Position numbers and translations under genes: made by a program
In this document: positions 24,668-56,932 of the stretch, piece by piece
Layout of the letters: every line of letters starts with the position of its first letter
Numbering within the stretch: the first letter of the stretch is position 1
Source: Bacteroidales bacterium
GTDB taxonomy: Bacteria; Bacteroidota; Bacteroidia; Bacteroidales; F082
Length of the DNA: 56,932 nt
Direction of reading: 5' to 3'
Assembly: GCA_017651645.1 (NCBI GenBank)
Contig: JAGCCO010000030.1
Location: 1 to 56,932 of the forward strand
The notes under the pieces: generated by a model
The model's input: only the letters and a program-made list of their open reading frames with translations
What the model was told of the DNA's origin: nothing
Databases searched by the model: none

Positions 24668-24693
24668 AATCGCGTTTGATTCTGTCTATTCAG

Positions 24694-26837: not shown

Positions 26838-26839
26838 AT

Positions 26840-27592
26840 CTATATGGTTACTCCTCCATCAATAATCAAAGAATGTCCCGTCACCCACGAGGAAGCATTG
26901 GAAAGCAAATAAATGATACCATAAGCAATGTCCTCCGGTTCACCATAGCGTTTCAGTGGATACTTCTCCATATCGAGTTTAAGTTGTTCTTCAGAAATAG
27001 CGCCGCCTTGTATGAGTTTCGTGTTTACCATACCCGGATTGACACTGTTGACTCGAATCTTTTTCGTGGCCAATTCCTTGGCACAAAACCGCATCATGGA
27101 ATTGATAGCCGCTTTGGAAGCTCCATATACGCCATTTCCCAAACTGAACGACTCCACACCACCGACCGAAGACACGAAAACAACTGAAGAATCATGTGCC
27201 AGTTTTTTCTTTCTGACAAGTAGACGCAACAACTCGACAGGTGCGAAGAAATTCACATCGAAGATTTCATCGAATCTATCCCGCGTACAAAAAGGAAACG
27301 GAAGTGTCATTCCCTGGCCAGCACACAACACCAACCCTTGCAAAGTCGGTACTTGTGCGACGAGATTCTCGACTTGAGCCTGATCGGTCAATTCAGCCAA
27401 CAACGACAGATGCTCATCACCATCCAAAGAATCAAACGTTTCTTTGAGTCTTTCTTCATTGCGAGCAGTAATGATAACTTTTGCCCCCAATTTAGAACAC
27501 TGGATGGCGGTCTCCTGTCCTATACCGGAGGATGCCCCTGTTACCAAAATCGTTTTGCTTTCTAAAGAAAACGGATTAAAGACTGTAGCCAT
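26840..27592 (-). CDS. FabG-like short-chain reductase (second copy)
   Basis: The 250-residue classical SDR shows TGASSGIGQ at residue 19, the catalytic serine in VFVSSVGG, and YGASKAA (YxxxK) near residue 155. C-terminal VTGHSLIIDGGVTI fits FabG-type enzymes. It is clearly divergent from the protein at 26082, so the pair is not a recent duplication. It is preceded by a 50-base gap after the second carrier protein. The substrate is unknown. Confidence 0.9.
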   Translation of the reverse strand: MATVFNPFSLESKTILVTGASSGIGQETAIQCSKLGAKVIITARNEERLKETFDSLDGDEHLSLLAELTDQAQVENLVAQVPTLQGLVLCAGQGMTLPFPFCTRDRFDEIFDVNFFAPVELLRLLVRKKKLAHDSSVVFVSSVGGVESFSLGNGVYGASKAAINSMMRFCAKELATKKIRVNSVNPGMVNTKLIQGGAISEEQLKLDMEKYPLKRYGEPEDIAYGIIYLLSNASSWVTGHSLIIDGGVTI

Positions 27593-41334: not shown

Positions 41335-43395
41335 CTAAGATTTCGGCGTATTCAAATCGCTCCAACGGAGCCAGTCGCAAGTAATCTTCATGCCCTCTTC
41401 GACCGAATAACGAGGTTTGAAGCCGAGTAGCTCACGGTTCTTTCGAACATCCAGCACCGTCTGCTGGCTGTAGATGGCCATGTTGACCGGATCCATCTCC
41501 GGCAAATGCTTTGTAATCTGCTTCCGAGCCAGACGCAGAACCTTGCGTGGCGCCTTGTACATCCACTTCGCCTTTTTAGGCGATGCCTTCTTCATGGACT
41601 CGTACTTGTCCATCAAATACTTCATCTGCTTCGTGAGCGTTACCTTGGTCGCCAACTTCAATTTGCGGCCGATGCCGTCCTTCAACGGAACAGACGGGAA
41701 CTGCTCGGGCGTCATACCCAGGACATCCAAATAATGGCCATAGAACTCTTTCCAGGTCAGCTTCTCGTCATCCGTCGCAATGAAAGCCTGATGGTCGGCC
41801 TTGGGATTGGTGCAACAGAGGAGGCACAGATCCACGACATTACCCACATACACGGCATTGCAGATGCCATTCCCGTTATCCACCCAGACAAAGTCGCCTT
41901 TGCGCATCAGTTCGGCCTGATAGATCGTATACCACATCGAATAAGGTCCCCAGACGTAGGTCGGGCGGACAATGCTTCCGTGAAGACCGTATTCATCCAG
42001 TAACTCCCAGAAACGTTTTTCCGATTCAAACTTGCTTAGGGCATAGGAATCGTCATAACTGATGAGGGGAGAATCGGCATTCAAATCTTCCGGAACGGTA
42101 GGGCCGTGAACAACGACACTGCTTGTCTGCACAACATGCTTGACACCACATTTCTTGGCTGCCCCAAGGATGGATTCCGTCGCCTTGACACTGGTTTCAG
42201 CGCCTCCCACGATGGCAAGGTGGAAAACATAATCGCAACCGGCCATCGCCTTTTCCATAGCCGTCTCATCGAGGATATCGTCCTGAATGAATTCGACGTC
42301 AAAACGGCTGATATAGGCTGCCTTTCCCCAATTGTGCACCAAGGCGCGAACTTTGGCACCCTCATGAAGGACCAGCTGTTCCACCAGATGGCTCCCAATG
42401 AAACCGGTGCCACCCGTGACGAATACTGTCTTGCCCTCGAATCCGCCCAGCGGATGCTTTTCGACCGGCCTATCTTTCTTCTGGGCATAGCAACGCTCGA
42501 GAATCTCGATGACGGACAGACCGTCCGAAACGGGGCAGGTCAACGCGGCATTTCCTTCAATGGCATCGAGGAAGTTCTTCAACTGGGCTTTCCCCAGATT
42601 CCGCATTCTCTCCTTGCAGATCTTTTCCACGCCGTCGATCTTCATCTTCCGCATTTCGAAGATCCCCAGTTCCACCCGATGCCCATTGCCTTCGATGACA
42701 ATGGTGTTGGACAATTCCCGTGTACGGCTCAACTTATAGAACGCCTTTGCCTTGTCAAACTGGAAATCGATCGTCAGGTTGCTTTCCAGTCCACCCATGG
42801 CATCGTCCTCATAGACAATCTCCTTGGGTTCGCCGAAGCACCAGAGGAGGAAATCCAGGGAATGGATTCCGTTGTCATAAAGCGCACCGCCGGGGACCAG
42901 TTCCTTCCTGAAGCAGTATCCGGATACAGTCGGCCAGTTGGAAGGAAGACCTTCGTTGATGGTTACGACGGGGCTGTCCCCGAAGAAACCGCTTTGGATC
43001 AACTCGCGAGCCTCTTTCCGCGACGGATAGAAACGATAGGTATGGCACATACCGATCGTCAGGCTATCCGGAGCACCTTCAAGGATGGCTTTGGTTTCGG
43101 CGCTGGACGGAGATAGTGGCTTCTCACACAGCACGTGCTTTCCTGCGGCAATGCAATCCTTGAGGATCGCATTCCTCACATGCGGAGGAGTGCAAATGAT
43201 GCAAACATCGCATTGCGACAACGCCTCGTGATAATCTGATACCGTGTGGACAAGTCCGTGCTTTTCAGCCAACTTCTCCCTCTGCGCCGGATTCAGTTCG
43301 GCAAGGACGATACGGTCGGCTCCTACAAGAGACTTCGCTGCGGGAATATGGGTGGAGTCGGCAATTGCTCCGCCACCGATGATGAGAATGGTCAT
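41335..43395 (-). CDS. Gfo/Idh/MocA oxidoreductase fused to NAD-dependent epimerase/dehydratase
   Basis: The 686-residue protein joins two complete enzymes. Residues 1 to about 315 form a Gfo/Idh/MocA oxidoreductase, with LIIGGGAIADSTHIPAA as dinucleotide loop and LCEKPLSPSSAE with the catalytic lysine. From about 326 to the end is an extended SDR: KTVFVTGGTGFIGSHLVEQL, then YALSKFESEKRF holding the YxxxK pair. Both active sites look intact. The pair could carry out two steps on one nucleotide sugar, such as oxidation and epimerisation. Such two-domain proteins are uncommon. The stop lies four bases from the next GT2; the start overlaps the upstream GT2 stop by four bases. Confidence 0.92.
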   Translation of the reverse strand: MTILIIGGGAIADSTHIPAAKSLVGADRIVLAELNPAQREKLAEKHGLVHTVSDYHEALSQCDVCIICTPPHVRNAILKDCIAAGKHVLCEKPLSPSSAETKAILEGAPDSLTIGMCHTYRFYPSRKEARELIQSGFFGDSPVVTINEGLPSNWPTVSGYCFRKELVPGGALYDNGIHSLDFLLWCFGEPKEIVYEDDAMGGLESNLTIDFQFDKAKAFYKLSRTRELSNTIVIEGNGHRVELGIFEMRKMKIDGVEKICKERMRNLGKAQLKNFLDAIEGNAALTCPVSDGLSVIEILERCYAQKKDRPVEKHPLGGFEGKTVFVTGGTGFIGSHLVEQLVLHEGAKVRALVHNWGKAAYISRFDVEFIQDDILDETAMEKAMAGCDYVFHLAIVGGAETSVKATESILGAAKKCGVKHVVQTSSVVVHGPTVPEDLNADSPLISYDDSYALSKFESEKRFWELLDEYGLHGSIVRPTYVWGPYSMWYTIYQAELMRKGDFVWVDNGNGICNAVYVGNVVDLCLLCCTNPKADHQAFIATDDEKLTWKEFYGHYLDVLGMTPEQFPSVPLKDGIGRKLKLATKVTLTKQMKYLMDKYESMKKASPKKAKWMYKAPRKVLRLARKQITKHLPEMDPVNMAIYSQQTVLDVRKNRELLGFKPRYSVEEGMKITCDWLRWSDLNTPKS

Positions 43396-44378
43396 GCTAA
43401 CCTCAATTTATTCGAAAGATACCCTAAGTAATACTTGACAGCCTTCAGATACTCTCCCTGTTTATATGTCCTTTTTACTAACGAATAAAAATACTCCGAA
43501 ATAATATCGCGGGAAATCAGTTTGTGATACTTATACTCCAGACCTTTGTCGATTAATCTATACATTTCGATCCGTTTGCAATCGTCATCGACAAACGAGA
43601 AATCTGCGGTAGATACACCAACGCCCAGCCGATAGGTGGAAGTCACATCATTGATGAACTTGGCTTTGCCAAAGGTGCTCAGCCAAATGAAAAACGGCTC
43701 ATCTCCAATAAAACACTTGGAAATCCAGGCTGGTCTAGACAAAGGAGGTTTACGATAAACAATAGTCGAGGTATGGCCGGGAGAAACAACTCTGTCTCTT
43801 CGTTTCTTTAACCCAAGACTATTGTGCAGAAGCATCTCCCTGGTCGTATATGTATCCCAGATAAAAATGTTCCCCTTGCGTATCCGCTTCCCATCCGTAA
43901 CCTGACAATTCGTGAAACAGAGCGAATAGTCAGGATTCTGTTCCAAGAAATCAACTTGCTTTTGCAATTTCAAGGGATCCGTCCAATAATCATCGCCTTC
44001 ACACATGGCGATGTATCTTGCGTTCGTCCAACCCGGAACTAATTCGCTCTTTTTGGGGTTGCGAAACAAATTCTTTTTAAGGAGAATTGCGAGAAAGTAA
44101 ACATTGGCATTCTCGTTATGTCTTGCATAAATCCACCGAGCATCATCGGTCTCCCACCTCTCTTCACAAGCACCTTCTCCCTGTCCGAAGAAACGCGAAA
44201 AATAATCCTCGATGATGTTCTGCTCACCGTCTGTCGAAGCATCATCCATGATAACGGCCAGAAAAGGAAAATCTGTCCGCTGAGCAGTAAAACCATCGAG
44301 CGTATCTTGGATGAAACGGCTTTGGTTATATGTCCTGCAATTGATATGGACCCAAAAGAAATCCTTCGGCGGAAACAT
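43392..44378 (-). CDS. Glycosyltransferase family 2
   Basis: The 328-residue protein has WVHINCRTYNQSRFIQDTL, AVIMDDASTDGEQNI and CEGDDYWTDPLKLQKQVDF near residue 130, which carries the DxD. GDEPFFIWLSTFG follows near residue 225. The pattern of DDYW and YSLCFTNC is that of GT2 proteins from polysaccharide loci. It lies 14 bases after the ABC ATPase gene. The donor is unknown. Confidence 0.92.
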   Translation of the reverse strand: MFPPKDFFWVHINCRTYNQSRFIQDTLDGFTAQRTDFPFLAVIMDDASTDGEQNIIEDYFSRFFGQGEGACEERWETDDARWIYARHNENANVYFLAILLKKNLFRNPKKSELVPGWTNARYIAMCEGDDYWTDPLKLQKQVDFLEQNPDYSLCFTNCQVTDGKRIRKGNIFIWDTYTTREMLLHNSLGLKKRRDRVVSPGHTSTIVYRKPPLSRPAWISKCFIGDEPFFIWLSTFGKAKFINDVTSTYRLGVGVSTADFSFVDDDCKRIEMYRLIDKGLEYKYHKLISRDIISEYFYSLVKRTYKQGEYLKAVKYYLGYLSNKLRLA

Positions 44379-44392
44379 AAATAACGTCAGTC

Positions 44393-45679
44393 CTAGAGTC
44401 TCTCTTCGGTAAAATCAAATCTCGGCGTAATATAACCCGGCTCTTTGCCCATGAACGAACCGATAGCCACTTTGCGACTCGCCAATGAGAAAGAAATGAT
44501 GTCATTCTCCTCTGCAAGGGGAATTATATTATTCTCCCTCTTGAACGCTAAAAAATCCAAAGCAAAACTACCCCAATTCAGGAAGTTCGCAGGAATGATA
44601 CAGGTCTGCAAATACTCTCCAGCCTCATGATGACGGTCATAACAACGACCGGATCCACTGAACGAGAAAAGCTTCTCTCCTTGCTCGTTTTTCATGTGCA
44701 TAGTAATCCAGAAATTATCAACCGGACGAGAAAGGCGATATCTGATAACAATCTCCAATTCCTGGTCAGTGCGCATCGTATCCTCATAATCCCCTCTCCT
44801 ACGTCTAACACCGATCTCCAGTAACGAAAACTCTCCCTTGGCAATCTCGGGGACTTGCCAGGATTTATAATTATCCGTGGCATTGTCTCCACGAAGATAG
44901 TGCGTAACAACCGTATCAATATCCCCGTCATCAACGACCATTCCATTCTGCAGGATAATACCACGCTTACACAAGGCTTTGATGCTGGTCATGTTATGGC
45001 TCACGAACAACACGGTACGGCCCTCCCCCTTACTGACATCCTGCATCTTGCCGATGGCCTTTTTCTGGAACTCGGCATCACCCACGGCAAGAACCTCATC
45101 AACGATAAGGATTTCCGGATCCAAATGCGCGGCAACCGCAAATCCCAGACGGACTTTCATACCGGAAGAATAGCGCTTGACAGGGGTGTCGATATAACGC
45201 TCACATCCGGAGAAAGCGATGATTTCATCAAGCCGGCTGGCGATTTCGGCCTTGTTCATTCCTAAAATCGCACCGTTCATGAAGATGTTTTCACGGCCGG
45301 TCATTTCAGAATGGAAACCTGTCCCGACCTCCAGCAAGGCGCCAATACGGCCACGGGCACGGATGGTTCCGACAGTAGGACCTGTAACTTTCGAAAGAAG
45401 TTTGAGAAGTGTGCTTTTTCCAGCACCATTCTTCCCGATAATTCCGACGACGTCACCCTGCTCGACTTTAAAGTCAATATCGCGCAGTGCCCAAACATAT
45501 TCCTCATCCCCCGCTGCAGTTGAGCGGTCATTGACTGCACCTATCTGGAGGTATGGGTCTTCCTTTTTCAAGACGGCGGTCTGCCACCAGCGGTCAAGGT
45601 CGTGAGACAAAGTCCTCGTTGAAACAAGACCGAGTCGGTATTGCTTGCCAACGTGGTTAAATTCAATAGCAGTAGACAT
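44393..45679 (-). CDS. wzt: Polysaccharide ABC transporter ATPase with C-terminal glycan-binding-type domain
   Basis: The 428-residue protein has an ATPase domain (about residues 1-245) with Walker A GIIGKNGAGKST (about 80-90), signature YSSGMKVRLGF (about 170-180), Walker B ILIVDEVLAVGD (about 190-201) and SHNM with the switch histidine (about 228). The last 170 residues form a beta-rich domain of the Wzt C-terminal type, which reads the end group of O-antigen in species where it has been studied. The family exports capsule or O-antigen across the inner membrane together with a permease. No permease gene is next to it or elsewhere in this window, so the partner must lie outside or be unlinked. 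Confidence 0.93.
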   Translation of the reverse strand: MSTAIEFNHVGKQYRLGLVSTRTLSHDLDRWWQTAVLKKEDPYLQIGAVNDRSTAAGDEEYVWALRDIDFKVEQGDVVGIIGKNGAGKSTLLKLLSKVTGPTVGTIRARGRIGALLEVGTGFHSEMTGRENIFMNGAILGMNKAEIASRLDEIIAFSGCERYIDTPVKRYSSGMKVRLGFAVAAHLDPEILIVDEVLAVGDAEFQKKAIGKMQDVSKGEGRTVLFVSHNMTSIKALCKRGIILQNGMVVDDGDIDTVVTHYLRGDNATDNYKSWQVPEIAKGEFSLLEIGVRRRRGDYEDTMRTDQELEIVIRYRLSRPVDNFWITMHMKNEQGEKLFSFSGSGRCYDRHHEAGEYLQTCIIPANFLNWGSFALDFLAFKRENNIIPLAEENDIISFSLASRKVAIGSFMGKEPGYITPRFDFTEERL

Positions 45680-45697
45680 ATTTACAAATAATTATAA

Positions 45698-46546
45698 TTA
45701 CAATTCAACACTAGCCCTTCTCGGCTCAAAACAGCAACACGGCCTCAACGCGACGATCCGAACCCCGCTCGCCCGCTGAGGTCCCACCTTGGCAAATGTC
45801 GCCAACACGCTGGTCTGACCACCAAGTCCCAAAGCGCCAATTCCTGCTTCGTTCACTTTCTCCGTGATCGTCCGCTCAAAATCAGACTGAACATCATAGT
45901 TCCCTTTCGCCATCGCCTCCACCATCATCGAGGTAGCCTCATATTGAGACCGGCCGATACCGACCGCAAGCGTACAAGGGCTACAACCGAGTTTGGCCAC
46001 GGCCTCCTTGGCACGAGCCACAATCTCGTCAATCACGACATCCACGCTGTGCTTATGGAAAACCCGATGGGTTATTCCGCGGATAGCGGGGCCGCCGCCA
46101 AGCATCAGTACAGTAAGGCGAAGGACATCTTCATCCACGGGTTTGATCAGGATGGGAGCAGGCTTCAACGCCCCCGGATCTTCATCCAAACCGCCCGACT
46201 GATCCAGGCGGGCATAATCGTCTCCTTTGATGGCCATCGGACGACCTGGGAGTGTCCGAAGTCCCAGTTCCACACCTTCAAAAATCTGCTGCATCAATTC
46301 ACCGGAGACGGTCCGATTGGGGCCGACCTCCAGGAACAGATGGGGAATACCCGTATCATCACAAAGAGGGCTCCGGCGGTCTTCCGCAACCAATGCATTT
46401 TCCAGCACCTGCTTCATCACCCAGCAAGTATGCCCATTCGTCTCAGAGCCGATGGCGCGACGATAGGCTTCCTTCTGATCCTCACGGAAAGTGGAGCCTG
46501 CCCGGACCAGACAATCCGCAACTTTTTGAACGATTTCGCTAATCAT
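45698..46546 (-). CDS. Class I fumarase / L-tartrate dehydratase-type alpha subunit
   Basis: The 282-residue protein matches the alpha subunit of two-subunit [4Fe-4S] hydro-lyases. The cluster cysteines are in PLCDDTGIP near residue 75, GCSPCTL near residue 182 and LRPCCCFEPRRASVEL at the C terminus. I chose the ATG at 46546, because GGAGAG lies about nine bases upstream on the minus strand; the frame open to 46573 overlaps the beta gene more. Such enzymes hydrate or dehydrate fumarate/malate, tartrate or related acids. The gene sits with other carboxylic-acid enzymes in a glycan locus, so a non-housekeeping substrate is likely. Confidence 0.88.
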   Translation of the reverse strand: MISEIVQKVADCLVRAGSTFREDQKEAYRRAIGSETNGHTCWVMKQVLENALVAEDRRSPLCDDTGIPHLFLEVGPNRTVSGELMQQIFEGVELGLRTLPGRPMAIKGDDYARLDQSGGLDEDPGALKPAPILIKPVDEDVLRLTVLMLGGGPAIRGITHRVFHKHSVDVVIDEIVARAKEAVAKLGCSPCTLAVGIGRSQYEATSMMVEAMAKGNYDVQSDFERTITEKVNEAGIGALGLGGQTSVLATFAKVGPQRASGVRIVALRPCCCFEPRRASVEL

Positions 46547-47051
46547 AGATGCTCTCTCCATGGGCTGCGGCAATGATTGCCTGGTAATTCTCTACGCGAA
46601 TACGATGGAAAGCCTCCATCCCAAGTTCCGGGAATGCCACTACTTCCCTCTCCAAGGTCTGACTCTCAAGCAGTGCGGTCACCGGAGGAATTACGGCAAA
46701 TACCGCATTGTTTTCCTTCAATGCCTGGACAGTGGCCGGAGAAATTGCTCCCTTCCCCAAATGTATCTTCACCCCTGCCTTTGACAGCGGTGCAAAACTG
46801 CTCTCTATCTCCAGTTTATTGCTGGAAGTCGGACCAACACCGGCTGGGGATACGGCCGTATGGAAGATGACCGAACCTTGAAGGTCGATACCGAGTTCGG
46901 GAAGAGTTCCCTCCGCTGCAGCCCTGACAATTTTAGGAAGAACCGCATCGCGGCCGGTATAGATTTCTCCGGAAATTGAGATGACATCACCTACACGGAG
47001 AGTCGCTATCAGCTCCTCCGGACAGGGTGTTTCAATCACGATGTGATTCAT
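46539..47051 (-). CDS. Class I fumarase / L-tartrate dehydratase-type beta subunit
   Basis: The 170-residue protein matches the C-terminal (beta) half of class I fumarases: VGDVISISGEIYTGRDAVL, VSPAGVGPTSSNKLE near residue 80 and IHLGKGAISPAT near residue 100. The usual arginine-aspartate pair of the GRDAAH motif is present but the following histidine is leucine. The alpha gene overlaps it by eight bases and the MmgE/PrpD gene shares one base with its start, so the three are co-expressed. The substrate may differ from fumarate, given the motif change; that is inference. Confidence 0.88.
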   Translation of the reverse strand: MNHIVIETPCPEELIATLRVGDVISISGEIYTGRDAVLPKIVRAAAEGTLPELGIDLQGSVIFHTAVSPAGVGPTSSNKLEIESSFAPLSKAGVKIHLGKGAISPATVQALKENNAVFAVIPPVTALLESQTLEREVVAFPELGMEAFHRIRVENYQAIIAAAHGESIYD

Positions 47052-48295
47052 TATCGGTTCTTTTCAATAATCTCTGATTCTGTAATGGGATTCTCAGGAT
47101 CTCCCTTGGGGTACTCTATACAAGTCGAAAATGAGTTATCTGTCGTAACAATCGTAACTCGGGCTGCTCGTTTTCCGGGAAGCCAAGAGGAAATCTCCGG
47201 ATTCTCGACAATACGAACCAGACCCATCAGACGATGAATCTCTTCATCCGCCAGATTTGTTTCATTATAATCTCCCAGTCCAGCATCCCCTGTCTTCAAT
47301 GCAAGGGCGACGCTGAACGGGATGCTCATTTTCGCGGATTGGATACCTTTGATTTCCGTATGGTCATGCCCTTTAATCGCCATGCCGTAAGTCTCAATGA
47401 GAATGCTGGATATGGAAGCAGGATCAATGTTGTATCTATCTCTCAAGGTAATGGCTGCCTCGATGGCAGAATGAGCATGCCGGCAGGCCGCATACATTTT
47501 ACGGTAAACCGTCTCAATTTGAAGATATTTCTCCTTGAATTCAGTTAGATACTGAATCCGAGGATTCTCCGTCAATACCGAGAGAAAGCCACGCTTTCCG
47601 CTGATGGCATCATCCGGTCCTTTGAATCCGGCCAAAGCACAATAAGCAGCAGCGATACCTCCGACAGCCGCATTTGCGAGGTTATAGGGCTTCAACTCAG
47701 ATTCATCTTCCTGCATTTCAAGCAGTCCGGAAGCGCTGGCCGTTGCGGCAGAGACTGCCACTTTCATCTGCTCACGAGTGAACTTCATGGCCGCTGCTAT
47801 AGCGACAGCTACACCGATCGTCCCACAGGTTCCCGAAGTATGATACCCCCTCAGTTTATGAGCAGGATTGACTGCTATGGCAAGTCTGATTGCGGCCTCA
47901 TAACCTACGACAATTCCTCTCAGAACGGCATCATCTGATAGCCCCTCAACCTCAGAAACCGGAAGAAGAGCAGAAATAATCGACGCCCCCAAATGAATCT
48001 GGCCGGCTCGATGGCCATCATCCAGTTCGGCCATATGGGCACTCATCGCATTGAGAAAAGCCGCATTGTGAAGCGTCGTCTTCTCCTGGAATCCAAAGAC
48101 ACTTACGTTCCCACCCTGTTTCAAGACACGGTCCAAGAAAGCATTGCCTTGCTTCCTAAGTATCTTTGCTCCGGCAGCAGTAACTCCCTTGTAATCAAGC
48201 AGACATAGCCGGGCCTGTTCAACCGCTACCGCCCGAAGGTCAGAAACGGATAATCCATAGAGATAATCGACAAATATGTCCGTGATATTCATCAA
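47051..48295 (-). CDS. MmgE/PrpD family protein (2-methylcitrate dehydratase-like)
   Basis: The 414-residue protein is the usual length of the MmgE/PrpD family, which includes 2-methylcitrate dehydratase, cis-aconitate decarboxylase and iminodisuccinate epimerase. Landmarks are AELDDGHRAGQIHLGASIISAL near residue 88, GYEAAIRLAIAVNPAHKLRGYHTSGTCGT near residue 130 and KMYAACRHAHSAIEAA near residue 265. Its start overlaps the hydroxyacid dehydrogenase stop (ATGA), and its stop shares a base with the fumarase beta start. Dehydration, decarboxylation or epimerisation of a tricarboxylic or dicarboxylic acid is possible. The choice cannot be made from sequence. Confidence 0.88.
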   Translation of the reverse strand: MMNITDIFVDYLYGLSVSDLRAVAVEQARLCLLDYKGVTAAGAKILRKQGNAFLDRVLKQGGNVSVFGFQEKTTLHNAAFLNAMSAHMAELDDGHRAGQIHLGASIISALLPVSEVEGLSDDAVLRGIVVGYEAAIRLAIAVNPAHKLRGYHTSGTCGTIGVAVAIAAAMKFTREQMKVAVSAATASASGLLEMQEDESELKPYNLANAAVGGIAAAYCALAGFKGPDDAISGKRGFLSVLTENPRIQYLTEFKEKYLQIETVYRKMYAACRHAHSAIEAAITLRDRYNIDPASISSILIETYGMAIKGHDHTEIKGIQSAKMSIPFSVALALKTGDAGLGDYNETNLADEEIHRLMGLVRIVENPEISSWLPGKRAARVTIVTTDNSFSTCIEYPKGDPENPITESEIIEKNR

Positions 48296-49266
48296 TACTT
48301 CAATCTTTTCCCCTCGATCCGCTCCAACTGACCGGATTCAAAGGCAGCGATATTGTCCATCGCCCCTTTCATCATGGTGTGGAATGCTTCATACGAAAGC
48401 CCGCCTATATGGGGCGTCAGAATGACATTATCCAGCTCCAACAACCTGTTATCCCCCTTAAGCGGCTCTTCATAATGCGTATCAAGTCCAGCGGAAAGAA
48501 CCCGACCTGATAGAATAGCGTCGTAAAGGTCATCCGGATTAATCAGTTTCCCTCGGGCAGTGTTAATCACAACTGCGCCAGGTTTCATCAACGACAAAGT
48601 ACAGATATTGAGCATCTCAACATTGTCCGGAGTAAGCGGGCAGTGAAAACTTAGGATATCGACGTTGGGAAGCATCTCCTTGAATGATGGGAAATAAGTC
48701 AATCGCAGTTCCTTCTCGACCGTCTCCAGCTGACGGAAGACATCCGTATACAAGACAATAGCGCCGAACGCATTCAACAGGCGGGCAACCATTCTTCCGA
48801 TATTTCCCATCCCGACAAGCCCGACAGTCTTTCCATGCAGTTCCCGAGTCTGGAGACCAGAATCCTGTTTGGCCCACACTCCGGAATGAGTTTGCTTGTT
48901 GATTCGAGGCAACTGCTTCAAACAAGCAAGAATCAACGTGAGGGTATGTTCTGCGACGCTTTGGGCGTTAACACCGGCATTCACATAGACTGGAATCCCC
49001 CGCTGTTTAATCGCAGCCAAATCCAACATCTCGGTCCCCACTCCTGTCCTTTGGATCATCTTGAGATGGGGGGCGGCATCCAACACCTCGGCATCAATTG
49101 ACAACCTTCCGCTCACCAAGAAGTAATCCGCGTCAGCAGCCTGACGAATCAAGCACTCCCTGTTGAGAGAATCTAATGTCTCGACAGAAAAGCCATCGGG
49201 AACAACCGAGCGGAGGATGTCCCAAGGAAGCCCGGAATAGGAAGCCGTATGCAGAATCTTTCTCAT
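48292..49266 (-). CDS. D-2-hydroxyacid dehydrogenase (phosphoglycerate dehydrogenase-like)
   Basis: The 324-residue protein starts at the ATG at 49266, which overlaps the TGA of the acyltransferase gene as ATGA; the longer frame from 49359 is not needed. The NAD loop GLVGMGNIGRMVARLL is near residue 145. The catalytic Arg (INTARGKLI), Glu (DTHYEEP) and His (LTPHIGG) are all present. Enzymes of this family oxidise or reduce D-2-hydroxy acids and 2-keto acids. The protein has no ACT or regulatory domain like SerA. It precedes MmgE/PrpD and fumarase genes, so it probably acts on the same acid series. Confidence 0.92.
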   Translation of the reverse strand: MRKILHTASYSGLPWDILRSVVPDGFSVETLDSLNRECLIRQAADADYFLVSGRLSIDAEVLDAAPHLKMIQRTGVGTEMLDLAAIKQRGIPVYVNAGVNAQSVAEHTLTLILACLKQLPRINKQTHSGVWAKQDSGLQTRELHGKTVGLVGMGNIGRMVARLLNAFGAIVLYTDVFRQLETVEKELRLTYFPSFKEMLPNVDILSFHCPLTPDNVEMLNICTLSLMKPGAVVINTARGKLINPDDLYDAILSGRVLSAGLDTHYEEPLKGDNRLLELDNVILTPHIGGLSYEAFHTMMKGAMDNIAAFESGQLERIEGKRLKY

Positions 49267-50237
49267 GAGGCCAGTTTCATCTTGTCCTGATGAAGGAGAG
49301 CATAACAAATGCTGGATAGTATCAGAGTAATGATGACAGTAACGATCGGCCTGAACCATTGAACCAATACAACAGTATCAACAGCCCAATGATGGTAGAT
49401 TTTATCCATCGACAGGAAGACAAAAGGGTGTAGGATATAAATCCACATCGAGTAACGTTTCCCGATTTCTTGTATGACGCCACGATGCCTGTCAGGATAC
49501 TTTACTGCATAAATGAATAAAGCAAATACTTGAGGAAAAGTCATAATGTTCACCCCGAAGTCACGCCCCATTATCTTTCGTTCTACCAAACATAACAAGG
49601 TCGAGACAAGAATAATCAGGATTAGCATCTTATCTGAGACCTTGATCTTATCTTGATTCGCATGAATCCAATGACCAGCGAAGAAGAAAGGCAAACCCTC
49701 AATCAACCAGTTCCGATAATACATATTCTGAACCTTGATTCCACAAAGGTGTGCCCCTTGGGCCATACAGATATATACGATTACCAGGACGGCAGATATG
49801 AGATAAAACCACTTTATCTTATCGGCTTTCCATATAATTCCAAAGGCGAAATAATCGTAGAGAAGTGCAAAGAGAAACCATAACTGGCCTACAATGATGA
49901 ACGGCTGATTGAAAACGCCAAATGCCAATATCTCATTCCTTGTGACCACATAGGTACCTTTCAAAACAAATGCGAACAACACATAAAACAAAGACGCCCA
50001 AAACACAATTCTTGTAATATGCATTGTCTTTCGTCGAATGATCGAACTATCGTATTCACCCGGATAGAAACAGAAATACCCCGATACCATAAAGAAGAAG
50101 GGAACCGAGAAGCGGCTGATCGCTTGTACGATAATGCCCGCCTTCCCGGGGAACTCACAATGCATGAACACGACGCAAATGCATGCTAGCCCCTTCACGA
50201 AATCCAAACAAGGATTGTATTCTTTAACGGTTCCCAT
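49263..50237 (-). CDS. Acyltransferase 3 family membrane protein (OafA/WecH-like)
   Basis: The 324-residue protein has about ten hydrophobic segments. It starts NPCLDFVKGLACICVVFMHC, where the motif FVKGLACICVVxxH places the conserved arginine-like and histidine residues of the family near the N terminus, and FFFMVSGYFCFY follows. Family members O-acetylate or succinylate polysaccharide intermediates. Its start overlaps the ATP-grasp stop by 14 bases and its stop overlaps the dehydrogenase start by four. No C-terminal SGNH domain is present. Confidence 0.9.
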   Translation of the reverse strand: MGTVKEYNPCLDFVKGLACICVVFMHCEFPGKAGIIVQAISRFSVPFFFMVSGYFCFYPGEYDSSIIRRKTMHITRIVFWASLFYVLFAFVLKGTYVVTRNEILAFGVFNQPFIIVGQLWFLFALLYDYFAFGIIWKADKIKWFYLISAVLVIVYICMAQGAHLCGIKVQNMYYRNWLIEGLPFFFAGHWIHANQDKIKVSDKMLILIILVSTLLCLVERKIMGRDFGVNIMTFPQVFALFIYAVKYPDRHRGVIQEIGKRYSMWIYILHPFVFLSMDKIYHHWAVDTVVLVQWFRPIVTVIITLILSSICYALLHQDKMKLAS

Positions 50238-51303
50238 TCAGGAAGGAAACGAACTCGTTCTTAAACCCTTTCTTAAGCGATGTCTGCTGCAAGATCCAAT
50301 CGCCCCAGTTACCTTCAACAAGACACCATCCTTTCTCCGAGAGAGCAAAATCAAAGGCAACATAAATCTGATCGTCCGGCAACGCAAGATGCGCTTTTTT
50401 GACCAACTCTATCAATTCCGACCATTGAGGAACCCGGAAACCGCGAAATGCCACTTTCGAGTCAGGATGTGCTACAAAAACATTTCCTTTCTCGTCATAG
50501 GCGTCAGAAATAATCTCGCCCGTATCCCGGGCTATCGAAACAAACACGCCACCCTGGCCGGCATTATCGACAATGCTCCCTGCTCTTCCAAACCGCATGC
50601 AAGGGTAAACACATTCCACGACTCCATTCCTTTTGAACGAAGGGAAACGAACGGTATTGATTGATGACGGATTGAATTCTGAAATCTCCGGAGCCTGTTT
50701 AATCACTTCCTCAATGATCCACTCTCCCAAACCGACCAACTCGTCAAAGATTTTGCCTGCCTGTTCATCATCACTGACTGCATATGTCCTGGCTCCATTC
50801 CCACAATTCCCTCTGTTCAGTTTGACGAAGACCTGATTATGTTTCTGACAAAAAGACAAAAAAGGCTGACGATCTTCCGGGCCCTTAATATATGTAACAT
50901 CCCTATTGAAGAAATCTTTCATATAGGAATAGAACACATATTTATCCTTCAACACATTTAGTTTTTCTCGCCAGTTTGAGCCATACAAAGAGATCATCAG
51001 TTGATCCTTCATCCTCTGGGAAATATACTGATCCCGCTCCCTCCTCTTGCTGTTCTCAAACCCGTATAACACAAACTCGTCCGGACGGAATCCCCCTTCC
51101 AGGAAAGCATATCTAGCCTTTTCGTAAATCTTGAGTCTGCTGAAATAGGGACGTTGGGCTATCTCAGGACACCTGCTCCAAAAGTATTGATACGATCGCC
51201 CATTATAAACCCGCTGAGAATCATCAAAATGCTTCCTCTGCTCCAGGAGAGAGAAAAAATCCGATATCCTTCTTCTCAGCGAATATGTAACGTTGCTGCT
51301 CAT
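50224..51303 (-). CDS. Sugar-transfer-associated ATP-grasp protein (intact paralogue of the broken gene)
   Basis: The 359-residue protein carries VKLNRGNCGNGARTYAV (lid near residue 150), FNPSSINTVRFPSFKR, GGVFVSIARDTGE and a metal site YVAFDFALSEKGWCLVEGNWGD-like segment with both ligands. Its N-terminal 95 residues (VYNGRSYQYFW, FRPDEFVLYGFEN) are matched by the small frame at 16779-17072, and the rest by 15984-16721, so it is the intact homologue of that broken gene. It starts by ATGA overlap with the C-C lyase gene and ends inside the acyltransferase start. An amide- or ester-forming step on a sugar is the likely role. Confidence 0.9.
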   Translation of the reverse strand: MSSNVTYSLRRRISDFFSLLEQRKHFDDSQRVYNGRSYQYFWSRCPEIAQRPYFSRLKIYEKARYAFLEGGFRPDEFVLYGFENSKRRERDQYISQRMKDQLMISLYGSNWREKLNVLKDKYVFYSYMKDFFNRDVTYIKGPEDRQPFLSFCQKHNQVFVKLNRGNCGNGARTYAVSDDEQAGKIFDELVGLGEWIIEEVIKQAPEISEFNPSSINTVRFPSFKRNGVVECVYPCMRFGRAGSIVDNAGQGGVFVSIARDTGEIISDAYDEKGNVFVAHPDSKVAFRGFRVPQWSELIELVKKAHLALPDDQIYVAFDFALSEKGWCLVEGNWGDWILQQTSLKKGFKNEFVSFLNGNR

Positions 51304-52436
51304 TCTCCGAATAAGATGAAATAATCGGCCTCACTATTGATGACCCCGTATGCCTCTGACCGACGCAAAATCCTTTCAGCCCATGCCTTGTGCGGGCCAA
51401 CCTCATTCATTCCCTTCGTTCCCTTCACGACTCCTCCGGAAGTATGCATTATCTGATACGCGTCGTCATACTCGTCCTTCGTAACGGCCAACATTCCGTT
51501 GATGTAGTTCAGATGCGAAGGATGGATGCAGGTCTTGCCCATGAAACCATTCGCCTGGTCAAGCACCAGTTCTCTCATCAATCCGTCAACGGCGTCATTG
51601 ACAATGGCCTTCCGCTTCAAGAGCGTCTGTTGAAGATCAACCTTGGGGAGTTCAGCCATTGTCTTCATGCTCTTGTTCGCCTTGAAGTATTCCCAGACCG
51701 GGCCTGACACGGTATAGTCGTTATCGCGGGTGAACACGTTAAGAATATCCATCAGACAATTACTTACCGTCAGGATATCGTAGATGGTATAGTTGATTCC
51801 ACGACGTACGCCGAAGCAGGACGAGAAATCAGTGCCTCCAACGCGAATATTCAGGACAAGATCCTTACACTTATCCAGCACTGACTTGATGGCGATAAGC
51901 TCATCCAGACGCGATTCCTTGTACGCAACACGGCGGTCTTCGATAATCGGCATGCCATAGATTACTTCTCCGAACTGATCATTCAGTTCTTTCAGGTGGC
52001 ACATATAGCCTTCTGCCGTCACGCTGTTGAACTTGGGGAAGTTGATGCCGGTGATAAACTTGATGTGTTCCGGTTTCAGCATGGAACTGAAGTGGTGGAA
52101 CTGCTCAAGATTACGGACACGGAAGAAAATCAAGGGAATATCCTTGTAGTCCAATGCACCCTCGTTGACAAGCCTGTCCAACTCATCCAGCAGATGAATC
52201 GAATTCAGTTCCGCGGCGGGGACATCCTGTTCTGGACAGGCATCCTCGAAGCACATCACCATGGACGTAAGCCCCGGATAACTCTTGTCAACAATCTTTT
52301 GGACGAAATCCTTCGTTCCGGGCATATACATCGTGGCGCCCAGACAATACTGAAGCAACGTGCGGTCCGTGTATTTGTCGAAGTTCACGGGGTCCTTCAC
52401 GAAGGCGAAATGAGGATTATATTGGTGATGCTTCAT
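51300..52436 (-). CDS. HpcH/HpaI-type C-C bond lyase (citrate lyase beta-like)
   Basis: The 378-residue protein fits the TIM-barrel C-C bond lyase family related to CitE, including those of ter-type operons. Visible are CFEDACPEQDVPAAE near residue 65, with the acidic metal ligands, NIRVGGTDFSSCFGVRRG near residue 200 and GFMGKTCIHPSHLNYING near residue 320, a strong family signature. The ATG at 52436 is five bases from the upstream stop; a TTG at 52445 would give a TTGA overlap. It cleaves or joins a 2-keto or acyl-CoA acid and a short aldehyde or acid. Next to an MmgE/PrpD and fumarase gene set it may supply a new carbon skeleton. The substrate is unknown. Confidence 0.85.
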   Translation of the reverse strand: MKHHQYNPHFAFVKDPVNFDKYTDRTLLQYCLGATMYMPGTKDFVQKIVDKSYPGLTSMVMCFEDACPEQDVPAAELNSIHLLDELDRLVNEGALDYKDIPLIFFRVRNLEQFHHFSSMLKPEHIKFITGINFPKFNSVTAEGYMCHLKELNDQFGEVIYGMPIIEDRRVAYKESRLDELIAIKSVLDKCKDLVLNIRVGGTDFSSCFGVRRGINYTIYDILTVSNCLMDILNVFTRDNDYTVSGPVWEYFKANKSMKTMAELPKVDLQQTLLKRKAIVNDAVDGLMRELVLDQANGFMGKTCIHPSHLNYINGMLAVTKDEYDDAYQIMHTSGGVVKGTKGMNEVGPHKAWAERILRRSEAYGVINSEADYFILFGE

Positions 52437-52441
52437 TTCTC

Positions 52442-53677
52442 TCAATCAAGTTCATAAATATCCTTCCGCATGATGGACTTTCCCTGCTCATCCAAGACAT
52501 CCATCTTTTGAAGGATGTGTTTCATCTTTTCGTCCACTTCCCGATAAGAACCGGCTCGAACGGTGAAAGAGACAATCCGCTCACTCGATGACATATCTCC
52601 GGAGCACATCATGCCTGTAGGTTTATTGGCATACAAAGTATCAATGCTCCCGTCGGCTTTCAGTTCATCGCATCCGACCAAAGCTGAAAAGACCCCTTTA
52701 CGAGGGAAAACATGATAAGTCGCATAAACAGGGAGCGAGGGTTGCTGTATCCTCAACTCCGGCTTCATACCAAGGAAGGCATCCGCCGAAGTCGTTATGA
52801 TATCCACCCCGGTCATATCCTGGACGATCCGGAAACTCAGATTGCCTCCAAACCGAATCCCAAACTCGATGACGGACACATCGCTGTCCGTCACGATCGC
52901 CTGAATGTATAAAGGTCCATTTTCGATGCCTAAAGCAGTCGCAATCCGATTGCTGATGACATGACAACGCCGCTTCATTTCATCGGATATCCGAGCGGGA
53001 ATCAATGAGCCGTAAGAGAGTGTCAGGACATCGGCAGTGTATTTTCTTTTCTCCTTGATATCCAGGACGACGGCCTCTCCGTCGGCTACGAAACAATCTA
53101 TCTGGATTTCGGGTCCCTGAACGAATTCCTCCACGATGGCCTGCTGATTGCGGCTCAAAGACAAGGCCTTCTCCACAGCATCCCTCAATTCCTGGGAGTT
53201 TCCCACTTTCGTGATGCCGATCGAGCCTGAAGCATCCGACGGTTTTACGACCAAAGGATACCGAAGCCCCTCGTCCTGAATATCATCGACGGAAAGCACC
53301 ATCCGGAAATCCGAGGTGGGAACACCTATCGATTTCAGCCATGCCTTCATCTTGTTCTTGTTCGTGACAACCAGAGAGGTATCATAACTGTAGGGATGGC
53401 CAATTCCCAATCTTTCCGCGACATAAGCGCCCACCGGTATCGCCCTGTCGGTACACAAATCCATGATGTACCGGGCATTCTCCTTCCGGCAGATTTGTTC
53501 CACTACGGCCACATCCAACGTGCTCTCCTGATAGTGGATATCAACATGGTCCTTGGCGAAAGGATGAGGGAGATAGTCAATCAGGACCGTTCGGTATCCT
53601 TTTTGCCTGAGATAATCAGCCAATACCGCATGAGGCCTGACACCTCCCAAAATCACGACCGTGTTCAGCCCTTGCAT
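52442..53677 (-). CDS. ATP-grasp ligase-like protein with altered metal-site residue
   Basis: The 411-residue protein starts NTVVILGGVRPHAVLADYL, with a lid at VVKPSDASGSIGITK near residue 145 and VEEFVQGPEIQID. In the metal site the first acid is Gln (YIQAIVTDSD) and EFGIRFGG keeps E and R but lacks Asn. It is therefore close to the protein at 17339 in having a weakened site. It overlaps the PLP-enzyme gene by 13 bases and is followed directly by the C-C lyase. It may still be active with a different metal geometry. I cannot tell its substrate. Confidence 0.83.
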   Translation of the reverse strand: MQGLNTVVILGGVRPHAVLADYLRQKGYRTVLIDYLPHPFAKDHVDIHYQESTLDVAVVEQICRKENARYIMDLCTDRAIPVGAYVAERLGIGHPYSYDTSLVVTNKNKMKAWLKSIGVPTSDFRMVLSVDDIQDEGLRYPLVVKPSDASGSIGITKVGNSQELRDAVEKALSLSRNQQAIVEEFVQGPEIQIDCFVADGEAVVLDIKEKRKYTADVLTLSYGSLIPARISDEMKRRCHVISNRIATALGIENGPLYIQAIVTDSDVSVIEFGIRFGGNLSFRIVQDMTGVDIITTSADAFLGMKPELRIQQPSLPVYATYHVFPRKGVFSALVGCDELKADGSIDTLYANKPTGMMCSGDMSSSERIVSFTVRAGSYREVDEKMKHILQKMDVLDEQGKSIMRKDIYELD

Positions 53678-54630
53678 TTCAAATCATTCAATTCTTTCAC
53701 CATTCCGTTCATGATCTCCTCCCCATAGCGCTGATCAACCGGCAGAGGAAGCATCTGTGATGCAAGACAATACTCCAAACTGGCGTCATCGACCCAATCC
53801 AAAACGTCCGGCCAATAACAAGCGATGAACACTTTTTCGGCAATAAGCCTCTCCCGCGTCCCCCTGGCTGACGTCAAATAGGGGTAAACCATTGGAACAG
53901 CATCGTCCTCAAGATTCAGGACGATCTTGTTTGATTTGCCTAATTCGTTTTCCAGCAGACGGTAATTCGCTCTGCGCCGGTTGGCGACCCCCTCATAATC
54001 GATACCTCGCATGAGCCGATGAGTGAGTCTCGACATCCGACGGACAGGCTGACCCGACAGGCGGTCATCATTCTTCCGGAAATCATCATAACCGGCCTCC
54101 GCTCCCTGGTCGATACGCCTAAGAAGGTGGCTCATCCGGTCATAAGACTCGTCCTGTTCAAACTCTCCGCCAAGCAGTTTTTCCGTATAAAGATACGCGC
54201 CGTCCGACACGCCAAAGAACTTACGGCAGGAATAGAAAGTGTCAATTCCTTTCACCGGTTTGGCATAAAAGGCCTGCGTGTTGTCAATGATCAGGCTCGT
54301 GCCATACAATTCGGCCAAATACTCGACATACCGCTGCTTCAAACCGAAATAATTCACATAGAGCAGCGCCTCGCCTGCTTTGACGGAAAGCTTTTCCCTC
54401 AACTCCAGACGCCCATCCACGTGGTAGAACACATACTGAACGCCCAGTTTCTCAAAAGGCTCCAGAACCACCGAACAGATATAATAGGGCAGGTAAACCT
54501 TCTTATATCCTCGAGACTGCAGAATATACTCAAGACAGTTGCGCCCAGTATTCAAGCGAAGGGCATCCTTGTGATACTCCTCCACCAGGGGCAGTTCCAG
54601 ACCGAAATATCCGCCAACAGGCTCCGTCAT
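53665..54630 (-). CDS. DegT/DnrJ/EryC1-like PLP enzyme, divergent
   Basis: The 321-residue protein starts at the ATG at 54630, which forms ATGA with the TGA of the upstream ATP-grasp; a longer frame starts at 54651. It is shorter than normal DegT enzymes (370-400). RLNTGRNCLEYILQSRGY near the start, LIIDNTQAFYAK near residue 110 and SCRKFFGVSDGAYLY near residue 133, where the lysine fits the PLP site, are the family marks. The usual EDxA pair reads DNTQA. It could be an aminotransferase for a small acid or sugar, or a non-catalytic relative. Its location between two ATP-grasps is notable. Confidence 0.75.
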   Translation of the reverse strand: MTEPVGGYFGLELPLVEEYHKDALRLNTGRNCLEYILQSRGYKKVYLPYYICSVVLEPFEKLGVQYVFYHVDGRLELREKLSVKAGEALLYVNYFGLKQRYVEYLAELYGTSLIIDNTQAFYAKPVKGIDTFYSCRKFFGVSDGAYLYTEKLLGGEFEQDESYDRMSHLLRRIDQGAEAGYDDFRKNDDRLSGQPVRRMSRLTHRLMRGIDYEGVANRRRANYRLLENELGKSNKIVLNLEDDAVPMVYPYLTSARGTRERLIAEKVFIACYWPDVLDWVDDASLEYCLASQMLPLPVDQRYGEEIMNGMVKELNDLKCKG

Positions 54631-55829
54631 CTTACAACCACTCTCCGCCATTCTCGTTGATGGGTAATAGCATGTTCCAGTTCTTCGGCCGATTTGAAAG
54701 AAAGGACCAGCGTACCGATGGCATTATTTGCGCCTTCAAATGCTTCCACACGGACCCCGCTTTCCACCCAAAGGTCCTCCTCAACAACCTCTCCGGAGAA
54801 ACACGGCGCAATCTCCAGATGGTCAAAAAGTCCCCCCTGGTCGGCGTGCAGGATAATCTCCGCCCAATACCCGTTGTAAGGCTTCTGTTCAATGCGGTCA
54901 ATAATCGGATCTCCCACAATCGCACGGGTAATGGCTGTAATCATGTCCACGCCTGTCGCATATCGCAGCATCTCGCACAGACGGTTTCCTCCCCCACGGG
55001 GGGTCAGTTCCATGATATAGGGCTTGCCATTGGTTCCGATGCGGGTCTCAATGTTATAGACAACCGTTTTCAGACCGAGCAAGGTAATCAGCCGCTGAAT
55101 CTCAGAAGTCAGATACGCCTCCTGTTCCTTGGTAAAGGTGGACGGCCAGGAATAGGCAGCGGGCGTGTACGGATTGACGGCATCCGCATCAAAGCGCTGG
55201 GCACAAAAACTTGTGAACGCCAGTTTTCCGTCTATCGACATACTGTCAGTATCGGAAGAACAGCCCTGTTTCTCAATAAACTCTTCGACGATAATATGAC
55301 CGGAAAGGGAGTTCTTCCAGGCATGCTCCAAGGCAGGTTTCAAATCTTCCACCGCGTCTACTCGGGTCACACCCTTGCTTCCCGCAGAGTCCGTAGGCTT
55401 GACAATGACGGGGAAAGAGAAAGAACAAGCCTCTTTCATCGCCGTTTCGACACTGTCGAAACCCTGATGCTTCGGGACATTGAAACCGTTCTTCTCCAGA
55501 AAATCCCGGAACTTGTCCTTGTTCTGGAGAATCTCCACGGACTCAAACGGTCCGAAGGAGGGCAGTCCCATCTTATTCTGGACATAGGATGCGGAAATCA
55601 CACCAGGATCACAGGCGAAAGACATGATGCCGTCTATCTTGAGCCGTTGCGCCTCCCGCAGAACGGCTTCCTTGTCGATGATGCTCACATTGCAATACGC
55701 ATCGCTCCTTTTGTGCGCTATGTTGTCAGGCAGGTAATCCGCCGTGATAACAAAGTAGCCCTGGTGATGGGCGGCATCGATCACAGGCTTGAGGTAACGA
55801 AGACCTCCCAACAGCATCAGTTTCTTCAT
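54627..55829 (-). CDS. ATP-grasp ligase (L-amino-acid-ligase/carboxylase-like)
   Basis: The 400-residue protein begins MLLGGLRYLKPVIDAAHHQ, has a lid at VIVKPTDSAGSKGVTRV near residue 140, VEEFIEKQGCSSD and a metal site YNIETRIGTNGKPYIMELTP with both acids; the third ligand position is Thr. The C-terminal 100 residues form a small extra domain. It is in the same group as the proteins at 18651, 19796 and 52442. It overlaps the PLP-enzyme start and follows the TIM-barrel gene by 29 bases. It would join an acid to an amine by an acyl-phosphate. Confidence 0.87.
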   Translation of the reverse strand: MKKLMLLGGLRYLKPVIDAAHHQGYFVITADYLPDNIAHKRSDAYCNVSIIDKEAVLREAQRLKIDGIMSFACDPGVISASYVQNKMGLPSFGPFESVEILQNKDKFRDFLEKNGFNVPKHQGFDSVETAMKEACSFSFPVIVKPTDSAGSKGVTRVDAVEDLKPALEHAWKNSLSGHIIVEEFIEKQGCSSDTDSMSIDGKLAFTSFCAQRFDADAVNPYTPAAYSWPSTFTKEQEAYLTSEIQRLITLLGLKTVVYNIETRIGTNGKPYIMELTPRGGGNRLCEMLRYATGVDMITAITRAIVGDPIIDRIEQKPYNGYWAEIILHADQGGLFDHLEIAPCFSGEVVEEDLWVESGVRVEAFEGANNAIGTLVLSFKSAEELEHAITHQREWRRVVVR

Positions 55830-55858
55830 GCTATCCTTCCCCTCCCAACAATGCCTTT

Positions 55859-56746
55859 TTATTTCGGAGAGACTATCGCCTCCGGATAGTATTCATCAAT
55901 CACCCTCTTCACCAACGCGACCTGCTTCGCACGCTTCCTGGCATCAGCTTCAGTTGTATCCCAACTATGCGTAGCGGCGACAGATCCACCTGTTTTCAGA
56001 TACACAGGCGCACAAATACGGATGAACTCCGGCACTTCATAGTGACGGATGAAACCGCCCGAAGATTTCGGGTTCTCCGTGTGAAGATCAATCGGAATAT
56101 CAATGGCAGCACGGATAGCAGCCAGCATCTGAAGTTGGATGTCACGGACGGGATTGAACGAGTTCGCGCCCAGGGACTCCATCAATTTGGCAGAGCAAGG
56201 ATTCCCATGGCCGGTATGGGCCGATACTTTAAAGTGGCAATCTTTGGGGATGAATCCCTGCTCCCGCATCTGACCAAGCAGCCAAAGCGCGCCTTCATCA
56301 TAAACCATGAAGGAACGGCAACCCAAGCGGGCGGCTCGACGGACATCCTCGACAGCACGGACAATCTGCTCCTGCCCTCTCAGGCGGTATCCCATGCGCT
56401 GGCCTTCTTCCGTATGGACGGAAGCGGACGTGTCTGTCGTGGCACGGGGGCCGATGGCCAGGATGAGTTCCACCTTCCACTTGTCCGCGTATTCGACCAT
56501 CTGGGCGATTTCGCTGTCAAGCAGCGTCCAGATGCCCTTGGTCTGCGTGACCCGATGAATCTGGATTCCATAACCATCCAGCGCTTCCAGCAGTGCTTTC
56601 ATCGTACCAGGTGCTTGAATGCCGGGTACTTCGAAACGATACTGGCCGCCATCTTCAAACCGCTTTTCTGATGTCGGGAGCGAATAAAGGTCACCTTCCG
56701 GCATTCCTATCGACGCAAGAAAGGCTCTTGTTTCTTTCATACTCAT
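55859..56746 (-). CDS. Predicted TIM-barrel protein (peptidase-U32-like, uncertain)
   Basis: The 295-residue protein shows alternating beta-alpha segments, as in TIM barrels: ILAIGPRATTDTSAS near residue 95, RLGCRSFMVYDEGALWLLG near residue 140, HFKVSAHTGHGNPCSAKLME near residue 175 and IDIPIDLHTENPKSSGG near residue 215. Many such short glycine- and histidine-rich turns suggest metal or phosphate binding. It looks closest to small U32-peptidase-like barrels, but the family signature motif is not seen. Four bases separate it from the partial gene upstream. I do not assign a reaction. Confidence 0.55.
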   Translation of the reverse strand: MSMKETRAFLASIGMPEGDLYSLPTSEKRFEDGGQYRFEVPGIQAPGTMKALLEALDGYGIQIHRVTQTKGIWTLLDSEIAQMVEYADKWKVELILAIGPRATTDTSASVHTEEGQRMGYRLRGQEQIVRAVEDVRRAARLGCRSFMVYDEGALWLLGQMREQGFIPKDCHFKVSAHTGHGNPCSAKLMESLGANSFNPVRDIQLQMLAAIRAAIDIPIDLHTENPKSSGGFIRHYEVPEFIRICAPVYLKTGGSVAATHSWDTTEADARKRAKQVALVKRVIDEYYPEAIVSPK

Positions 56747-56750
56747 AAAG

Positions 56751-56932
56751 TTACTTCCATTCTATGGGGGGTGTCGCAATATTGCCAAATTCCGTCGCGA
56801 AAGTTATCGTGAAATAGGGAAGATCTTCTTTCATTCTTTCCGACGAAACAGTCATGTATCCGTTGGTTATTTCTTCTTCAGAAAAACGCCGACAGATGAT
56901 TTCATCGACGGTATAACCGCGTCCTCCTGCTT
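56751..56932 (-). CDS. C-terminal end of an unrecognised protein (cut by window edge)
   Basis: Reading the minus strand from base 56932 gives 60 codons ending in TAA at 56753-56751. The last residues include VDEIICRRFSEEEITNGYMT and end NIATPPIEWK. The stretch has no membrane segment. I do not recognise the family. It is followed after four bases by the TIM-barrel gene, so both are likely in one operon with the dicarboxylate-type genes downstream. Confidence 0.7.
   Translation of the reverse strand, partial: AGGRGYTVDEIICRRFSEEEITNGYMTVSSERMKEDLPYFTITFATEFGNIATPPIEWK

Follow-up and report, generated by a model that had tools for sequence, protein, structure and literature searches.

The window analyzed here is a stretch of 56,932 nucleotides from a Bacteroidales bacterium (family F082; GenBank assembly GCA_017651645.1, contig JAGCCO010000030.1), in which a block of eleven minus-strand open reading frames (ORFs), lettered A to K in the order of transcription from position 56746 down to 45698 (Table 1), sits at the end of a surface-glycan locus. 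A core of these genes, A, E, H, I, and the pair J and K, usually with an ATP-grasp gene such as D, recurs across genomes, and the reading of this core as one pathway is well supported. We propose, giving the interpretation about even weight, that the core is a dedicated, patchily distributed cassette that makes a branched hydroxy acid of the citramalate/mesaconate type and links it to an amino sugar. The observed basis consists of the genes present and their fold classes, their co-occurrence, the replacement of steps within reaction classes, and a sister set with citrate lyase and without glycan genes; from it we infer a five-carbon (C5) branched acid, the order and direction of the steps, and an amide linkage. 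Literature searches found no description of this gene set, which is new as far as those searches went and is built of known families except A.

Co-occurrence and replacement of the core genes

Scanning genome contigs with an MmgE profile yielded 32 loci. Gene presence in related loci was scored by BLAST against the cluster members and by reading, rather than by a family search of every protein, and names such as malic enzyme, glycosyltransferase family 2 (GT2), flippase, and several others were assigned by reading. A was present within the locus stretch examined in 25 of the 32 loci, and every one of the 25 had a C-C lyase as well: 21 had E, L005, L006, and L019 had CitE/CitF, and L011 had a DRE-TIM enzyme. 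Among the 32 loci, 22 carried J and 20 carried K, and an ATP-grasp related to D or B accompanied 20 of the 22 A loci that had no CitE/CitF. The I loci without A in the stretch examined were L001, L003, L022, L027, L029, L030, and L032; in L001, A is located farther along the same contig. The sets in glycan loci adjoin ATP-grasp, GT2, DegT, or flippase genes in several phyla, and the named carriers include Eubacterium ruminantium FB3002 and Tritonibacter scottomollicae DSM 25328. The preliminary description of this stretch had proposed looking for the C-C lyase, MmgE/PrpD, and fumarase alpha and beta genes beside ATP-grasps in glycan loci, and this combination was indeed present in many genomes. 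It had also held that scattering of close homologues in unrelated settings would speak against a functional block; only distant homologues were found scattered (E relatives on plasmids and relatives of A and I).

Surveys independent of I gave the same picture. A was detected at 73 to 78% identity in 7 of 391 Clostridia genomes and cassette-type K in 8 of 386, with six genomes in common (hypergeometric P = 4 × 10−11, taking 386 genomes; indicative only, given the relatedness of the genomes and the prior identification of G004 and G007 as carriers). Across five surveys, A at 69% identity or more was found in 7 of 391, 1 of 395, 2 of 295, 2 of 196, and 2 of 31 genomes, where each survey's center genome is counted among the positives and both of the 295-genome positives are also among the seven of the 391-genome survey. 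These counts leave out, from 16 matches in the 391-genome survey, three at 49 to 51%, one at 39%, and five partial ones at 26 to 30%; from the 31-genome survey they leave out seven of nine positive genomes, which had only partial matches at 25 to 30% (a second partial match in G1281 is likewise left out). In G122, A lies on a 3-kb contig and no K was found; in G034, K and a 51% A relative lie on separate contigs. Patchy presence alone suggests horizontal transfer of the cassette.

Several steps are carried out by different families in different loci. The dehydrogenase is variously a 2-hydroxyacid dehydrogenase (2-HADH), Ldh_2, a GlcD-like flavoprotein (L067 and L069), or an enzyme of the isocitrate dehydrogenase family (L024); a malic-enzyme-like gene is found close to an A relative in L059 to L061, in L061 alongside Ldh_2. 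In L026, L028, and L077, a Lyase_1 enzyme and a PF04199 cyclase stand in for J and K; an AtuA/DUF1446 and DUF4387 pair may do so in L003 (we take AtuA, PF07287, to be the same as DUF1446). The DRE-TIM (HMGL-like) enzyme of L011 belongs to a family other than that of E. Such swapping for other families of the same reaction class is expected of a conserved pathway and not of chance proximity. The sister set with citrate lyase, which lacks glycan genes, resembles the same route run in reverse for catabolism, and its existence means that the chemistry is not exclusive to glycans. The earlier reading of the block is partly supported: the core recurs, including A and the dehydrogenase, but the unit does not comprise all eleven genes.

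Proposed pathway and identity of the acid

In the proposed scheme, E would condense a 2-oxo acid with an acetyl unit; pyruvate is the likeliest such acid, and the product would be citramalate. J/K together with I would shift water across the double bond of a derived unsaturated diacid (of the citramalate, mesaconate, or 3-methylmalate type), two enzymes thereby doing what aconitase does alone. H, or an unrelated 2-hydroxyacid dehydrogenase, would interconvert the 2-hydroxy and 2-oxo acids; A would make or break a bond in a 2-oxo acid, at a guess as an aldolase-like enzyme; and the ATP-grasp would ligate the acid to an amino sugar, which by gene context is a 4-amino-4,6-dideoxyhexose in two loci read. 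A bolder version, to which we give slightly less than an even chance, is that this is an undescribed cross-phylum pathway in which citramalate-type degradation runs in reverse to furnish a new hydroxy acid of surface glycans, with A as a new enzyme class (a U32-like TIM barrel in which two lysines are invariant) catalyzing an essential step. If so, central-metabolite chemistry would be tied to decoration of the sugar coat in gut and rumen bacteria, for which we found no description; the genes would serve as a marker predicting which strains carry the decoration, and enzyme family A would be singled out for study. The named carrier strains make this reading testable.

Structure comparison gave E the fold of citramalyl-/malyl-coenzyme A (CoA) lyase, a match of fold only; sequence identity to the CLYBL/MCL citramalyl-CoA/malyl-CoA lyases in those comparisons is 12 to 17%. 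Relatives of E at less than 60% identity occur in 2515 plasmid records, and the annotated ones among the matches listed are mostly of the Ter type. The best of them (Brevibacillus, 46% identical) adjoins phosphoribosyltransferase and StiP genes, a module with PF15617 that we take to be linked to Ter. The HpcH/HpaI enzyme of the Ter-associated module belongs to E's family, PF15617, but neither phosphoribosyltransferase nor StiP is among the window's eleven genes. I belongs to the MmgE/PrpD family, as does PrpD of the 2-methylcitrate cycle, but it scores far below the NCBIfam prpD cutoffs (50 versus 575, 43 versus 458, and 40 versus 950 bits), and the eleven genes include none of the PrpB or PrpC type.

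Enzyme A shares 69 to 80% identity with the 22 copies that were aligned, which come from 21 loci in several phyla. It has no Pfam match at an E value of 0.001, and a relaxed search returned BKACE alone (E value of 0.098). Its AlphaFold2 (AF2) model (mean predicted local distance difference test score of 86.7) matches TIM barrels, bearing out an earlier suggestion of a probable TIM barrel, and A proves to be part of the core. Thirty positions are invariant in 11 aligned sequences, window A included, among them E39, R65, D105, D150, K173, D220, R234, and K251. The A relatives in L063 and L106 match Peptidase_U32 (PF01136) over its cutoff, whereas window A has no U32 match at an E value of ≤5. 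Distant A relatives have enolase-superfamily genes as neighbors in L064 (assigned by reading) and L105 (annotated as such) and 2-hydroxyacid dehydrogenase and aminotransferase genes in L106; such surroundings fit A as an enzyme of 2-oxo acids. The L106 relative lies inside an apparent biosynthetic cluster on an Enterobacter chuandaensis plasmid (L106:6907-16870), with an APH-type kinase, the 2-hydroxyacid dehydrogenase, a class I aminotransferase, a heme-oxygenase-like enzyme, a DUF2817 protein, and an MFS transporter.

We give a C5 branched acid about an even chance, as a moderate inference. K scores 110 bits against TIGR00722 (cutoff, 101), and three of its cysteines, presumably cluster ligands, align with those of fumarases. 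The closest described chemistry is the methylaspartate/mesaconate pathway, in which MesAB and CitDEF convert mesaconate to acetate and pyruvate via citramalate (PMC4682846). The likeness is a two-subunit class I fumarase relative beside citrate-lyase genes in the sister loci; the differences are that no mutase or ammonia-lyase was seen in the glycan cassettes, that the cassette adds A, I, and a 2-hydroxyacid dehydrogenase, and that J/K form their own subfamily. A further likeness comes from L130, in which cassette-type J/K (sharing 62 and 57% identity with their nearest cassette copies) belong to an operon with methylaspartate mutase S, E, and GlmL, all over NCBIfam cutoffs; the L130 genome gave no match to PF07476. 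The AtuA/DUF1446 and DUF4387 pair is common to the methylaspartate and MmgE sets and ties them together, and it may be a C5-diacid hydratase with no relation to fumarase. This pair recurs in L095, L097, L102, L130, and L003, next to methylaspartate ammonia-lyase, methylaspartate mutase, or MmgE genes.

Evidence against the proposal and alternative explanations

Several observations weigh against the proposed cassette. D relatives share 29 to 38% identity and accompany the set in 14 of the 25 loci that contain A, making D less conserved and less constant than A, E, J, or K. E and I are present in the L027 genome (G011), where A was not found; G139 has K in a glycan-like stretch, with no A found; and in G334 the set is split between a glycan locus, which has E, I, H, and an ATP-grasp, and a location outside it with CitEF, A, J, and K. 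The substrate motifs of J/K are rewired (SENMS to PAIRG and TSGRM to SSNK), and J/K resemble the fumarase-type proteins of L059 to L061 at least as closely as they do those encoded in methylaspartate operons; hence, mesaconate is not proven as the substrate. Since CitE matches PF15617 over its cutoff, as a distant relative of E, the E/CitE swap is not one between unrelated families. L066, L068, and L078 carry a thiamine pyrophosphate (TPP) enzyme, whereas the dehydrogenases listed above are all absent from the stretch examined, and the MmgE of L066 and L068 is just 32 to 39% identical to that of the cassette. Finally, the role of A in the pathway is unexplained. L066, L068, and L078 are A, E, and K cassettes, with J seen in L066 and L068 and an aldo-keto reductase in L066 and L078.

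The TPP enzyme also bears on a rival explanation, in which the acid has an additional anionic group. The L066 copy scores 402.8 against a phosphonopyruvate decarboxylase cutoff of 312.5, and those of L068 and L078 were assigned by similarity to it. The core might handle a phosphono- or sulfo-analogue of citrate, the 2-oxo acid being phosphonopyruvate or sulfopyruvate that the dehydrogenase reduces or the TPP enzyme decarboxylates. Sulfolactate dehydrogenases occur in each of the 2-HADH, Ldh_2, and GlcD families. L-Sulfolactate dehydrogenase is the best-scoring match of the three Ldh_2 copies that were scanned (L016, L061, and L130), although below its cutoff (274 to 312 versus 500), and the altered J/K motifs gain basic residues. 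We nevertheless regard this explanation as unlikely: phosphoenolpyruvate (PEP) mutase (TIGR02320) turned up in 1 of the 15 genomes of carriers or relatives searched, several of which are titled in their records as incomplete assemblies, and there it sits in an aminoethylphosphonate-type locus on another contig; it was not found in G336 and G378, the two genomes searched of the L066/L068/L078 set; no sulfite or C-P genes were recognized by eye in L005, L019, L067, and L069; and J/K occur in a methylaspartate mutase operon. The PEP mutase over the cutoff lies in cassette carrier G002 (L079:3434-7781), followed by genes read as phosphonopyruvate decarboxylase, aminotransferase, and nucleotidyltransferase, a typical aminoethylphosphonate glycan locus.

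Alternatively, the set could catabolize a branched hydroxy acid, with E as a lyase, and have no functional connection to the glycan loci that it lies in or adjoins. A and I relatives do occur in catabolic-looking operons: L005, with citrate lyase, also encodes a creatininase, an AAT-type amidase, and a binding protein of the oligopeptide type, and A relatives of about 50% identity lie beside fumarase, malic-enzyme, and MmgE genes (L059 to L061; names partly by reading), in L061 also beside transporter genes. The repeated adjacency to glycan genes in several phyla and the presence of E in place of citrate lyase in glycan loci argue against this explanation, which we hold to be quite improbable. 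Least probable of all, and in our view very doubtful, is that all eleven genes form one pathway including an amination by C. The tight overlaps within the window favor such a unit, but B, C, F, and G are not common to most related loci. Moreover, C, previously described as a DegT-like pyridoxal phosphate enzyme, matched no Pfam family even at an E value of ≤5, leaving its proposed amination unsupported.

Layout of the locus and accompanying genes

The eleven consecutive genes and the partial gene at the window edge that had been described are all present, and Pfam supports the HpcH/HpaI-type lyase, the 2-hydroxyacid dehydrogenase, MmgE/PrpD, the three ATP-grasps, the acyltransferase 3, and J of the two-subunit class I fumarase-like pair, with K identified by TIGR00722. 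The reported overlaps of 1 to 14 bases hold at the likely starts for every pair except A and B, which are 29 bases apart: B/C, 4; C/D, 13; D/E, 4; E/F, 4; F/G, 14; G/H, 4; H/I, 1 to 4; I/J, 1; and J/K, 8 (using the starts that we judged likeliest, 54630 for C, 49266 for H, and 46546 for K). K is separated from the ABC gene by 18 bases.

Table 1. Genes of the A-K block and its flanks in the window
Feature	Positions	Strand	Basis or remark
Further ORF, 3' end only, truncated by window edge	56751..56932	-	Stop at 56751-56753
A: U32-like TIM-barrel enzyme, 295 aa, core gene	55859..56746	-	AF2 model; Peptidase_U32 matches of relatives
B: ATP-grasp (ATP-grasp_4), outside constant core	54627..55829	-	Pfam
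C: no family assigned	53665..54651	-	Likely start 54630
D: ATP-grasp (ATP-grasp_4), putative carboxylate-amine ligase	52442..53677	-	Pfam
E: C-C_Bond_Lyase (PF15617), core gene	51300..52445	-	Pfam, E value 5e-110; citramalyl-/malyl-CoA lyase fold
F: sugar-transfer-associated ATP-grasp (PF14397, ATPgrasp_ST), locus-specific	50224..51303	-	Pfam
G: acyltransferase 3 membrane protein (Acyl_transf_3)	49263..50237	-	Pfam
H: D-2-hydroxyacid dehydrogenase (2-Hacid_dh), core step, replaceable	48292..49266	-	Pfam
I: MmgE/PrpD enzyme (MmgE_PrpD), core gene	47051..48295	-	Pfam
J: class I fumarase-type beta subunit (Fumerase_C), own subfamily, GPTSSNK motif	46539..47051	-	Pfam
K: class I fumarase-type alpha subunit, own subfamily	45698..46546	-	NCBIfam TIGR00722
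ABC-transporter ATPase of glycan locus, flank	44393..45679	-	Family scan
GT2, flank	43392..44378	-	Family scan

The remaining genes of the block vary between loci. B relatives (25 to 28% identity) occur in 5 of the 32 loci, neither B nor C has a constant counterpart in related loci, and F-like and G-like genes were found in 4 and 3 (L015, L070, and L119), respectively, of 47 other loci scanned. Scanning 20 further genes of the window assigned a family to 18 (glycosyltransferases, ABC ATPase, PGA_cap, ATP-grasps, sugar epimerases, and others) and none to 2, a content that bears out the glycan context of the block. Inside the glycan locus, a FabH-like gene (below the cutoff), an AMP-ligase, and two SDR genes stand in a row at 23367-27592, which suggests a second acyl substituent. 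At 41335-43395, a 686-residue protein fuses a GFO/IDH/MocA oxidoreductase to an NAD-dependent epimerase.

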